Below, piece by piece: positions 21,702 to 26,615 of a DNA stretch of 37,784 bases. The position numbers and the translations under genes are program-made. Under the pieces are notes generated by a model. That model saw nothing but the letters and a program-made list of their open reading frames with translations. It had not been told where the DNA came from and searched no databases. Within the stretch, counting starts at the first letter, position 1; every line of letters starts with the position of its first letter. The stretch comes from Candidatus Omnitrophota bacterium. Its GTDB lineage: Bacteria; Omnitrophota; Gorgyraeia; Zapsychrales; Zapsychraceae. The stretch is from assembly GCA_020053475.1 (NCBI GenBank), contig JAGVNC010000073.1, positions 1 through 37,784 on the forward strand, given 5' to 3'.

Positions 21702-21896
21702 CTATTCGTCCTCAACGTTAAAATCGAGGGTATTGACCATTAATTCCAACCCTTCGACTGAAAGATTAAGCGAATTTTCAATGGTTTGGGTTAAAAAGCC
21801 TTCCTTTCTTAAAGCGAAAATAACAACGACAATGACTGCGGCAAAAAGCAAGATATATTCAATCGCTGTTTGGGCTCTTTTAGGGAATTTCATCAT
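21702..21896 (-). CDS. Class III signal peptide (archaeal-like) pilin subunit
   Basis: 64 residues. The N-terminus MMKFPKRAQTAIEYILLF, then a valine/alanine-rich helix to about residue 28, is the class III signal peptide/QxxxEY pattern. The short basic leader is cut before or near Gln10, and the hydrophobic helix packs in the pilus core. The tail of about 35 residues is short and acidic. No prepilin peptidase, ATPase or platform protein is in the window, so it is an orphan subunit here. The ribosome site AGGA lies in a hairpin, AATCCT/AGGATT (21899-21918), just before the ATG, which may limit translation. Confidence 0.75.
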   Translation of the reverse strand: MMKFPKRAQTAIEYILLFAAVIVVVIFALRKEGFLTQTIENSLNLSVEGLELMVNTLDFNVEDE

Positions 21897-21985: not shown

Positions 21986-22519
21986 TTATAAAAGCCGATA
22001 CACTTTGTCTTTTTCCCGCGCCTCACGGATGACTTTTAATCCGACGAGCTGGCCTTTGCGGGCCTTCTTCACATTGATGCTCTCAATTTGCAACGAATCG
22101 ACCTTTTGAACGAAGTCCGTTGATTTTCCGCGGACGTGAATCGTCTGGCCGACATCCAACGCCCCTTTCATTTTAATCACCACGACCGTGATCCGCGGGA
22201 AATAATGAGTGATTTCACCGATCAGAATTTCTTTCCGGGGTTTTTTGTTAGAAACAGCTTTAGGCTTAACTTTTGACAAACTCCTGGAAGGGCGCTTGCG
22301 AGGCAACTTCTTTTTAGGCTTCTTTTTAGACTTCTTAGACTTCTTCTTCAATTTTCTTGCAGATGTAACTTTTTTTTTGGAAAGCCGCTTAGATCGTCTT
22401 TGTTTCGCTCCCGATCGACGAGAAATCCGTTGACGCTTAGAGGCCCTCTTGGGCTTTGATCGATGAATCTGTTTGATGGCTTTGACTGCCGAACGAAATA
22501 AACGCTTCAATAAGGACAT
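21986..22519 (-). CDS. Lys/Arg-rich histone-like tail fused to an EF-Tu domain-2-like barrel
   Basis: 177 residues in two halves. Residues 1-96 contain no Asp or Glu; 40 of residues 21-96 are Lys or Arg, with Ser, Ala and Pro, like histone H1-type or nucleic-acid-binding tails. From about residue 97, EILIGEITHYFPRITVVVIKM through VGQTIHVRGKSTDF, QIESINVKKARKGQLVGLK and VYRLL match the small 'translation elongation factor-like' beta-barrel proteins related to EF-Tu domain 2. The barrel would bind RNA or a partner protein, and the tail nucleic acid. SD AGAGG precedes the ATG. It lies 71 nt after the ParA-CBM48 gene. Function not established. Confidence 0.75.
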   Translation of the reverse strand: MSLLKRLFRSAVKAIKQIHRSKPKRASKRQRISRRSGAKQRRSKRLSKKKVTSARKLKKKSKKSKKKPKKKLPRKRPSRSLSKVKPKAVSNKKPRKEILIGEITHYFPRITVVVIKMKGALDVGQTIHVRGKSTDFVQKVDSLQIESINVKKARKGQLVGLKVIREAREKDKVYRLL

Positions 22520-22590: not shown

Positions 22591-23817
22591 TTATTCTGTG
22601 GGGGTTGGGACGTTCCCGGGAACTTCAACGAGCGAATTAATGTCCCCGAAAGAGTTGCGCTCTTTACGTGTATTTTGAGGATCTTCGCGCCAAACACCAT
22701 CAACAATAAACTGATATTTATAGATGCCTGGCTGCAAAGAAATCATGATTTCCCATCGGCCGTTATCTTCGCGCAAGCGGCACGATTCATCCAGCGACCA
22801 ATCATTGAAGCTGCCTGTGACATAAACAGATTTCGCTCCAGCGGCTTCAATGCTAAATTTCGTGTCAACCAATTTCTGCGCTTCTTCTTTGACTAAATTC
22901 TTCATCCGGGACGATAAATCCGCGAATGCCGCTTCCGGGGCCGTTGAGGCTTCCGATGGCGCATCGTCAACGCGAGGAAGCTTGGGGGCCGTCCCCGAAG
23001 AGGGCTCTGTCCCAAACCGCGGGAGTTCCCGTCGAGTTAACGTTGATGTTGGCGCGGGGCCTTCTTCCAGCAGAATGAGCTCTTTGGCCAATGCGGCATA
23101 ATCCTTAGATCCGCGGCAATACTTATCATACAAAGAAACCGTCTGCCCCATGACCGCTGATTCTTTCAATTTGACGTTCACATGAATAATGGTGTCCATT
23201 AACAAACCCTTAAATTTTTCTTTGAATGTGGCCAGCATGGAAAAGGAATGGCGCAAACGGGAATCAAACATGGTCACAAGAACACGGCATTCTATCGCAT
23301 GATTGAGGCGCTCTTTAACCAAATTCACGATGTCCATCAAATGATCAACGCCCTGCATTGAAAAGCGGCTTGTTTCCACAGGAATGATCAATCCTTGGCT
23401 GGCCCGGATCGAATTCACCGTCAGGATCCCCAAACTGGGAGGGCAATCGATCAGAATGTAATCATAACGATTTTTAAGAGGCGCCATGGCTTCCAACAGC
23501 TTGAGCTCGCGGCCGATTTCATCCGCTAATTCTTGCTCTAATGTCCCCACAAGGATATTGGAAGGGATAATATCAAATTTATCTTCGACACGCTGGATGA
23601 TGCTGTCAATTTTTAACTTTCGAGGGGTCAAACTGGAAATGACATTGTAAATGCTGTCTTGATTTTTAATATTTAATCCTAACGTCGCATGACCTTGAGG
23701 GTCGAGGTCCAACAACAACACTTTTTTCCCGTTAATGCCTAGTGCTGAAGCTAAGTTGATGGCTGTGGTGGTCTTCCCACATCCCCCTTTTTGATTCGCT
23801 ATCGATATAATTTTCAT
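22591..23817 (-). CDS. ParA/Soj-type ATPase fused to a C-terminal CBM48 (glycogen-binding) domain
   Basis: 408 residues. The N-terminal ~255 are a complete ParA ATPase: deviant Walker A KGGCGKTT (about 10-17), LLDLDPQGHATLG (Walker A') and DCPPSLG (Walker B). A Pro/Thr/Ser-rich linker follows (about 255-310). Residues about 325-401 are a CBM48/AMPK-beta-type fold, VYVTGSFNDW...YKYQFIVDGVW...DIN. Both tryptophans (Trp340, Trp376) and the Asn (394) that line the carbohydrate site in AMPK beta are present. ParA proteins usually position DNA or cell structures. The fusion suggests positioning of, or sensing by, a glycan or glycogen-like body. No parB or parS is seen. The ATG follows the upstream TM beta-sandwich gene by 19 nt. 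Confidence 0.88.
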   Translation of the reverse strand: MKIISIANQKGGCGKTTTAINLASALGINGKKVLLLDLDPQGHATLGLNIKNQDSIYNVISSLTPRKLKIDSIIQRVEDKFDIIPSNILVGTLEQELADEIGRELKLLEAMAPLKNRYDYILIDCPPSLGILTVNSIRASQGLIIPVETSRFSMQGVDHLMDIVNLVKERLNHAIECRVLVTMFDSRLRHSFSMLATFKEKFKGLLMDTIIHVNVKLKESAVMGQTVSLYDKYCRGSKDYAALAKELILLEEGPAPTSTLTRRELPRFGTEPSSGTAPKLPRVDDAPSEASTAPEAAFADLSSRMKNLVKEEAQKLVDTKFSIEAAGAKSVYVTGSFNDWSLDESCRLREDNGRWEIMISLQPGIYKYQFIVDGVWREDPQNTRKERNSFGDINSLVEVPGNVPTPTE

Positions 23818-23836: not shown

Positions 23837-24412
23837 TTAACTTGTCAACCGGATATTTTCGATGAGAAGGACACCTGTGGCGGATTGGACATTCCAGGAT
23901 TCAAGTTCAAAACTAATGGTTTTCACGTTCGACCAATCAGAAATTTGTTTAAACGTTTCCAAAGGGATTTGAAACTCTTGCCACGACTTATCAACGCCCT
24001 GTAAATAATAATACGATTGCTCATTGCGGGCATTGACAATGACGACTTTCACAATCCCGGGGCCGCTGCCTTCCCAGCCGCGCAACGCAAATCGAAGCTG
24101 CTTATAACGAGCGGCATCGAGCGACGGCAATGTCAGCGAAAAACGCTGAACAGGCGTCCCCTGGGTCTTAAAATCATAAGCCAGGCGGATGGGCCCTTCG
24201 TGCAGGGAATAAATAATGTTTTCTCTTAAATGGCTTCCCTGCTTTGTTAAAAAAGCGGTCAACCCGTAAAAAGCGCTCGCAAAAATAATCAACGTAATGC
24301 CAAAGTTAATGACTAACCAAGCATTGAGTTGCCGCTCTTTTTTCCCATCATCTTTCTTGCGTTTACCAAGATAGACCTGAGCCAGATGGTCATAAATGTC
24401 GTCTCGAGTCAT
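23837..24412 (-). CDS. Single-span membrane protein with beta-sandwich domain
   Basis: 191 residues. A charged cytoplasmic N-terminus (about 1-30, GKRKKDDGKKERQ) precedes one hydrophobic helix (about 32-54, LVINFGITLIIFASAFYGL). The rest is a beta-rich domain with features of carbohydrate-binding/galactose-binding sandwiches, such as PIRLAYDF, RYKQLRFALRGWEG, SWQEFQIPLETFKQISDW and VKTISFELESW. No catalytic residues are apparent. It would be anchored in the inner membrane with the sandwich outside. It lies 19 nt upstream of the ParA-CBM48 gene in the same operon, so the pair may link an envelope or polymer ligand to a ParA ATPase (inference). Confidence 0.65.
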   Translation of the reverse strand: MTRDDIYDHLAQVYLGKRKKDDGKKERQLNAWLVINFGITLIIFASAFYGLTAFLTKQGSHLRENIIYSLHEGPIRLAYDFKTQGTPVQRFSLTLPSLDAARYKQLRFALRGWEGSGPGIVKVVIVNARNEQSYYYLQGVDKSWQEFQIPLETFKQISDWSNVKTISFELESWNVQSATGVLLIENIRLTS

Positions 24413-24707: not shown

Positions 24708-26195
24708 TTAGAAGTTTACATTGATGTTCGCTAACAATTGCGAAGCCACATCATCGGTATTATCGTGGAACGCATCTCCCGGAATGAACCAGCCCAAGTT
24801 TAACCCGAGCTGAACGTCTTCCGTGTAGTCGTAAGTTAACTTAACGTCAACTTCGTTACCAAGAGCGGTCTCGCCAACAACCCCAACAGTTGTTGCGTTT
24901 GCTGCAGTGAGACCATTCGGATTTGCTTGCGTAATATCCGTCGCCGGATTAGTGGCTAGGTCTTTATCTAACCAAAGGCCTGTCCAGGAAACTGTCCCGC
25001 GAACATCTTCGATAATGTCAGCGGATAACGACACTCCATGGATCCAGGCTCCGGATAAATCAAAGAGGGAGTTATAAATCGTCCCGCCAGCTTGATTTTC
25101 GAAGAACGGATCCCAGGCTGTCCAGTTAGGTGTATCACCGTCGTTATTGACAGCGCCGGTTCCCGTTCCTAGACCTTTTTCAGTAACGTCTTTATCCCCT
25201 TCAACCCATGTCAGAACATATTGCACGACAGCGTTATTCCCTAGATCACCACCGCCAAGTTTAGGCAATTGGTAATTGGCAATAAATTGAGCTGCGTTTG
25301 CATTTCTGTTTTGGCTGACGCTGGTGGTAGTTGTTGTAGAAACAGCTTTTGTACCGAACTGATGGGCATACTCAATTTGTGTATTTAACCCTTCGATCGG
25401 ATTCGTGCTAACGCGGATACCCGGAAGGAAAATTTTATCCTTCTCGGCGCATTTTGAGCTACCGGTGCAGGTTGTTGTGTCTAAGGCATCCAAGCTGTTA
25501 TCAAGTTTGGCGAAGAAATAGGTTTCAACTTCTGTTCCCATCGAATCGCCGACTTGATAGTTGGCCACCGTACCGAAAAGGTCAATGTCACCATAATCGG
25601 TCGCACTGGCGGTACCACTTTCGTATTCATTGATTTTCGACCAAAACGCTTCAAGCGTTAGGGGATTGTAATCCAAGATAAGGCGAACAGCATCTTGGGC
25701 TTTTTGCTTACTTAGGTCTTCGGCCACACTATTAATGCCGGAGTCTGTCGGAGCGGTGTTATTGGTCCCAGCCGAATCAAAGATAAAGCTGTTACCATAT
25801 TTCCAGCTCTGACGGCCGACCACAACCGTCAGCGGTGAATAAAGCATCTCACGAAGCGTGACATACGCTTCGTAAAGAGATACCGTTGAATCACTGCCGC
25901 TACCGCCGTTGGCTGAATTGATGTCATTTTCCCAAGCTCTCTCATTAATCAACCCAACGTGAGCAGATACTTGATCGCTAAGATCAGCATCCACCTTCAG
26001 GATGGTTTGCGTAATGAAAGCATCTTGGTCTTGATCGCCAAGACCGGCAGTGCCAGCGCCGAAATGGAAATCATTTCGGTCGATGTACGTAGTGTCGATG
26101 CTCCCACTGATTTTGATGTTCTGTACGCTAGCAAAAGCAGGGACAGCGACAAAGGCCACAGCCACAGCAATCGCTAATACGATTAATTTTCTCAT
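24708..26195 (-). CDS. Outer-membrane beta-barrel porin (AlgE/alginate-export-like)
   Basis: 495 residues from the ATG at 26195, chosen because GGAGGA lies just before it; a TTG 12 nt earlier is unlikely. A clear Sec signal, MRKLIVLAIAVAVAFVAVPAFA, ends at residue 22-23. The mature part alternates polar and hydrophobic residues in amphipathic strands with Asn/Asp/Thr-rich loops, for example SLYEAYVTLREML and VVVGRQSWKYG, which resemble alginate-export-type barrels. The final residue is Phe, as required for barrel assembly by BAM. Two cysteines in one loop (CTGSSKC) may form a disulfide. It has its own terminator and a promoter 200 nt upstream, so it is a single-gene unit and probably highly expressed. 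The substrate is unknown. Confidence 0.88.
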   Translation of the reverse strand: MRKLIVLAIAVAVAFVAVPAFASVQNIKISGSIDTTYIDRNDFHFGAGTAGLGDQDQDAFITQTILKVDADLSDQVSAHVGLINERAWENDINSANGGSGSDSTVSLYEAYVTLREMLYSPLTVVVGRQSWKYGNSFIFDSAGTNNTAPTDSGINSVAEDLSKQKAQDAVRLILDYNPLTLEAFWSKINEYESGTASATDYGDIDLFGTVANYQVGDSMGTEVETYFFAKLDNSLDALDTTTCTGSSKCAEKDKIFLPGIRVSTNPIEGLNTQIEYAHQFGTKAVSTTTTTSVSQNRNANAAQFIANYQLPKLGGGDLGNNAVVQYVLTWVEGDKDVTEKGLGTGTGAVNNDGDTPNWTAWDPFFENQAGGTIYNSLFDLSGAWIHGVSLSADIIEDVRGTVSWTGLWLDKDLATNPATDITQANPNGLTAANATTVGVVGETALGNEVDVKLTYDYTEDVQLGLNLGWFIPGDAFHDNTDDVASQLLANINVNF

Positions 26196-26615
26196 TGTCT
26201 CCTCCAAAAAGTTGAAAAGTAAATCAGCCAGCGGTTCTGGCTAATTTATCTTTCTCTTATAACTATCTATGAACTAAGCACATAGGCTTAGAAGAATGTC
26301 ATCTAAGACCAGTTTACAGATGATTTCGGACCGAATAGTATTCATCCCTCCTTTCTTGGTCGAATTAAAATCACCACTGGGTTAAGGAATTGGTATTGTG
26401 TCTATTGTCACATGAGCCCAATTTCATGTCAATCATTTTTAAAAAAATTTTCACTATCCCCCTAAAAACAGCCCTGATAGGGCTTAGGGCCTATTTCCCC
26501 CCTCGAGAACTTAACCATTCGCTTTGATTTCACTGAAAAGTCAACCTCTACGATACCCGTTTCGTCACCCGAGTTAGTCTATTGTTAAGAACTTTTAACG
26601 CAAATCGATCTGTGA
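26196..26615 (-). promoter_or_regulatory. Porin promoter and ~200-nt leader
   Basis: TTGACA (26427-26432), a 17-bp spacer and GACAAT (26404-26409) with an extended TG make a plausible promoter. The leader of about 200 nt is unusually long. Near its 3' end AGCCAG/CTGGCT (about 26226-26242) forms a hairpin upstream of GGAGGA. An AAAGGAGG stretch lies near 26346-26353. Upstream, 26461-26615 contains AGCCCT/AGGGCT stems but no gene. I do not recognise a known riboswitch. Confidence 0.55.

Follow-up and report, generated by a model that had tools for sequence, protein, structure and literature searches.

A 37,784-nt stretch of DNA from a Candidatus Omnitrophota bacterium (contig JAGVNC010000073.1 of assembly GCA_020053475.1, hereafter the window) encodes on its reverse strand a protein in which a tail resembling histone H1 is joined to a small barrel of the translation-factor type. 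The locus raises the question of what such a tail may do on such a barrel, and which partner the neighboring genes may offer it.

Anatomy of the tailed barrel

The open reading frame (positions 21986–22519, reverse strand) starts with ATG immediately after a purine-rich stretch that reads like a Shine-Dalgarno site, and encodes 177 residues followed by a stop codon. Residues 3–20 (22460–22513, reverse strand) form a predicted amphipathic helix with an AlphaFold2 pLDDT of about 85 and a hydrophobic moment of 0.77, equally high in 1 of 1000 shuffles; an amphipathic N-terminal helix (p ≤ 0.05) was found in 12 of the 25 ATG-started members of the window's order tested, the window included. Residues 21–96 (22232–22459, reverse strand) make up the polycationic tail (27 Lys, 13 Arg, no Asp or Glu), which is probably disordered and is modeled as low-confidence coil over residues 21–95 or so. 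The barrel, residues 97–177 (21989–22231, reverse strand), was modeled with a pLDDT of about 98 and contains 16 Lys/Arg and 9 Asp/Glu.

The earlier note on this DNA, made from the letters alone, had reported no acidic residue in residues 1–96 and 40 Lys/Arg in residues 21–96, and our composition count gave exactly these figures (30 Lys, 16 Arg and 1 His over residues 1–96; 40 of 76 tail positions Lys or Arg). Among the 34 other window genes that hold a 76-residue stretch, the maximum was 26 Lys/Arg per 76 residues (mean 9.5), and none contained an acid-free stretch of 96 residues. The Lys and Arg codons of the tail are mixed (16 AAG, 14 AAA and several Arg codons), so the tail is not a poly-A run, and a poly-A artefact was ruled out as the source of its lysines. 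In one close pair of relatives (L003/L009), separated by few substitutions, dN/dS was 0.47 for the tail and 0.25 for the barrel.

The protein thus has the long, Lys-rich, acid-free and probably disordered segment of histone H1-like proteins of the Hc1/Hc2/AlgP type. Its tail composition would suit a general nucleoid-compacting protein of the Hc1/Hc2 or AlgP kind in which the barrel is incidental, and among the relatives L070 shows a weak likeness to histone H1-like models (E 0.0056 and 0.012; 17 of 80 bits). We nevertheless consider this role very unlikely, since it is the barrel that is conserved (mean column identity 66%), and the window protein had no hit among the NCBIfam models at a threshold as loose as E 1.

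Fold and distribution of the barrel

In fold searches (Foldseek, VIA-align) the closest match to the modeled barrel was a U32 C-terminal domain from Geobacillus (4he5; Z 16.0, rmsd 0.9 over 79 residues), with domain 2 of IF2, EF1A and EF-Tu ranking below it (Z about 12 over 76–86 residues) and the small archaeal protein Pbp11 (7anu) at Z 11.7 and rmsd 1.8. The EF-Tu domain-2-like barrel proposed in the earlier note therefore holds as a fold but not as the nearest relative, which by this modeled fold is the U32-peptidase C-terminal domain. Profile comparison gave the same ranking: in hhalign, a profile of 53 barrels aligned with a probability of 97.9% to the C-terminal end of a U32 protein (catalytic domain PF01136) from Omnitrophota, and with a probability of 8% to the genome's own EF-Tu. 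Against PF03144 (GTP_EFTU_D2) the window protein scored 20.4 bits, below the cut-off of 30.3; 29 of 30 barrels matched this family at E ≤ 0.1. The window protein had no match to PF16325 (U32 C-terminal) at E 0.1, and in a sequence search of PDB chains neither translation factors nor U32 proteins came up below E 0.05, leaving the fold search as the informative one.

The window protein differs from each of these relatives. It shares the barrel with the U32 peptidases (4he5/4he6; PF16325), but its reading frame consists of tail and barrel only, without their catalytic domain and with a polycationic tail added; it shares the fold of domain 2 of EF-Tu, EF1A and IF2 but lacks a GTPase domain. Pbp11 of Pyrococcus abyssi is likewise a small stand-alone barrel; the corresponding model NF041207, 'tRNA-binding protein Pbp11', was matched by 1 of the 53 aligned members (E 0.0044) and not by the window protein, and a literature search for Pbp11 with Pyrococcus found no paper. 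A search of phage records gave no match.

By profile or sequence the barrel was present in 45 of 55 relatives and in 296 of 384 Omnitrophota genomes, both tallies including barrel-carrying U32 proteins. The make-up of the window protein, a basic tail ahead of the barrel, recurred at every one of the 30 loci taken from its order (L002–L031, window included). The earlier note had called for a barrel search and had named two ways in which its reading could fail, namely close relatives all without a tail, or a gene-boundary error; tailed forms are conserved at every fetched locus, and with tail and barrel in one frame at 30 of 30, a boundary or frame error was ruled out. Under a start rule preferring the first ATG, the tails of these loci span 68–171 residues with 18–69 Lys/Arg; their length and sequence vary while the charge is retained, and no short conserved activator motif was seen in them.

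More widely, the picture is mixed. Of 232 loci in a search of named genomes the best 80 were retained, and 28 of these 80 were tailed, every one of them from Omnitrophota as assigned by taxonomy, by record title or, for L079, by contig identity to a genome of that phylum. The remaining 52, all from outside Omnitrophota and including Bathyarchaeota, Woesearchaeota, Aminicenantes, Planctomycetota and WOR-3, had no basic tail, which bears out the earlier note's remark that stand-alone barrels normally lack one; in most of them the extension was absent or very short, and even the longest two, at L066 and L068, carried just 3–5 Lys/Arg. In other orders of Omnitrophota, tailed, short-tailed and untailed barrels all occur, and some genomes hold a tailed and an untailed copy (e.g. 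G150, G163, G272, G303, G010 and G022). One distant member (L151 in G170) has a 244-residue tail rich in Arg, Gly, Gln and Pro in place of the Lys-rich one.

In a first quick tree, four tailed rows of family f38 fell inside an untailed clade with their own fork at 99, which would imply a second gain of the tail if the tree held. An AU test on the corrected alignment did not reject a single tailed clade (p 0.37), the tree being weak because only 81 columns were used. Locus L032, whose ParA neighbor contains a masked stretch, was excluded from the trees, and its unmasked barrel frame was kept in alignment A2.

The fold also admits a tRNA- or rRNA-binding factor, in which the barrel would read RNA like domain 2 of a translation factor, the tail would add affinity and the gene neighborhood described below would be an operon habit. 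This is possible, if somewhat doubtful. The fold is common to EF-Tu/IF2 domain 2 and to Pbp11, named as tRNA-binding in NCBIfam; the U32 proteins TrhP and RlhA participate in RNA hydroxylation, according to passages of PMC6599085; and untailed barrels follow a radical-SAM/UPF0004/TRAM protein in a Bathyarchaeote (L044) and lie close to a U32 gene at L180. However, the sequence similarity to EF-Tu is weak, as the hhalign comparison indicates, and the untailed barrel of Aminicenantes is flanked by a FabG-like gene and methylmalonyl-CoA mutase. The latter gene order recurs in several Aminicenantes (L076, L099, L105, L108–L110 and similar loci).

Linkage to an orphan ParA

In the window the tailed-barrel gene lies directly downstream of a gene (22591–23817, reverse strand) for a ParA-type ATPase (PF13614, 4e-54) fused to an AMPK-type glycogen-binding domain (PF16561, 1e-16), here called ParA-CBM. 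The glycogen-binding domain was confirmed in the window and at L138, and the C-terminal sequences at other loci look alike. The ATPase is an orphan, since a separate parAB, in which ParB adjoins another ParA, sits on contig C78 of the same genome. Upstream lie a membrane-anchored protein with weak CBM30 similarity (23837–24412, reverse strand) and, at the head of the conserved cluster, a porin-like outer-membrane protein (24708–26207, reverse strand), recognized by synteny and named from its sequence, with no family match. In the window's order the cluster begins with the porin-like gene and continues with the membrane protein and ParA-CBM; in most cases a small membrane protein comes next, and then the tailed barrel, after which a pilin-like gene often stands ahead of rpsO and pnp. 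This operon, like the untailed paralogues of some relatives, had escaped the earlier note.

Two side observations concern other genes of the window. The window has a class III signal peptide/pilin-like gene at 21702–21896, the place of which is taken in some relatives (L040, L067) by a very large reading frame of 1425–1919 residues. At 927–2562 the window also contains two overlapping reading frames that we take to resemble a toxin-antitoxin pair of the AbiEii/AbiEi type.

ParA-CBM was matched in 230 of the 384 genomes of the phylum (E ≤ 1e-90). The linkage count covered the best 150 barrel and the best 150 ParA-CBM matches and scored as tailed any barrel whose open frame was 115 residues or longer, a measure of length rather than of charge. 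Of the 150 barrels listed, 65 had a listed ParA-CBM within 3 kb, and in 64 of these pairs the barrel was the downstream gene on a shared strand. Where a genome had a ParA-CBM among the matches listed, such proximity held for 64 of the 71 barrels with a long frame and for 1 of the 11 with a short one (Fisher p 9e-8), and outside the window's order for 27 of 33 and 1 of 11, respectively (p 3e-5); these p values are too good because the genomes are kin. G108 and G127 were scored as tailed, yet their extensions resemble membrane segments, and G043 was scored as far, its barrel and ParA-CBM lying on different contigs. That long-frame rather than short-frame barrels track ParA-CBM is left unexplained by an RNA-binding factor.

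The linkage is not absolute in either direction. In several genera ParA-CBM and the small membrane gene occur with no tailed barrel after them, at least over the stretches covered in G042, G048 and G051 (family f7) and in G020 and G027, with G053 and G008 covered in part, so the barrel is not an obligate partner of ParA-CBM, and it is not always present with its ParA. Conversely, tailed barrels without an adjacent ParA-CBM were found in f38 (L133, L144, L150, L166), in f37 (L132, L146) and in other classes, where the neighbors include RNase E/G, RmuC, a zinc-ribbon protein and a poly(A) polymerase/CCA enzyme.

A gene directly downstream of an orphan ParA could encode its activator, the basic N-terminus stimulating ParA-CBM in the way that ParB, MinE and PomX act on their ATPases through N-terminal peptides. 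The passages of PMC7993993 that describe ParA activators give them a short positively charged extension, with activator peptides of 20–52 residues, and a positively charged N-terminal extension, which these passages ascribe to ParA/MinD partners, is present in the tailed barrel. We regard this role as distinctly unlikely. The tails, at about 70–170 residues, are far longer than those peptides and show no short conserved activator motif, and ParA-CBM is retained where the barrel is missing. With ParB, MinE, PomX and McdB the protein shares a basic N-terminus and, in many relatives, a gene beside a ParA-type ATPase, but it differs from them in its much longer tail and in being lost while the ParA stays, and it has shown no homology to them.

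The membrane neighbor has a far better conserved basic peptide at its cytoplasmic N-terminus. It starts with a near-constant sequence of the type M-T-R-D-D-I-Y-D-H-L-A-Q-V-Y-L-G-K followed by Lys/Arg, and the corresponding regular expression matched 41 of 44 cluster members. From its sequence, this protein is a strong candidate partner of ParA-CBM, at least as good as the tail.

A possible tether or adaptor

Our best explanation, held tentatively, is that the tailed barrel is a lineage-specific nucleic-acid-binding tether or adaptor serving the ParA-CBM system; judged by the fold and by the biology of U32 proteins, the RNA-binding role comes close to it in likelihood. That charge is kept without sequence, together with the amphipathic cap and the conserved barrel, suggests an adaptor with a polyanion-gripping tail, and we infer that the protein may bind nucleic acid, tether, and act with the ParA. 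The U32-C-type barrel would make a specific contact with an RNA or protein partner, the long disordered Lys/Arg tail would cling non-specifically to a polyanion, with the nucleoid or RNA as the likeliest candidates, and the amphipathic helix would cap the tail. In most of the class the protein would be made with, and probably serve, the upstream ParA-CBM positioning system.

Proteins with a comparable arrangement are known from storage granules, and the parallel is one of analogy. In the passages available, the H1-like domain of AlgP is proposed to bind DNA and tether polyphosphate granules to the chromosome (PMC9239181), and the same tethering is proposed for PhaF and PhaM at PHB/PHA granules (PMC13052382); these passages make no mention of a tailed barrel protein. 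All three have a Lys-rich tail in common with the window protein, and PhaF, as there described, also has an amphipathic N-terminal helix. Unlike the N-terminal tail of the window protein, those of AlgP and PhaF are described in these passages as C-terminal and repeat-based, and no barrel is described there for AlgP, PhaF or PhaM.

What such a system would carry is suggested only by the CBM of the ParA, by GH57 in the clusters of some relatives (tested directly at L134, and by sequence cluster at L140, L145, L148 and L165) and by glycogen/starch-synthase-type GT5 and GH57 matches elsewhere in the window's genome. One may imagine that Omnitrophota possess an unrecognized ParA system for placing a polysaccharide meant for storage or export, perhaps granules of alpha-glucan, with ParA-CBM as motor, the membrane protein as partner and the H1-tailed barrel tying cargo or RNA to the nucleoid; as a whole this picture is unlikely. 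The words glycogen, histone, starch, polyphosphate and granule are all absent from the main text of an Omnitrophota survey (PMC10066038).

Across much of a phylum, a widespread small barrel, which elsewhere stands alone or belongs to U32 RNA-modifying proteins, thus has a histone-like tail whose presence tracks an orphan ParA. Should this association have a function, it would connect ParA-type positioning with granule tethers such as AlgP and PhaF. The tailed barrel is also a testable candidate for the organization of the cell interior in these uncultured bacteria.
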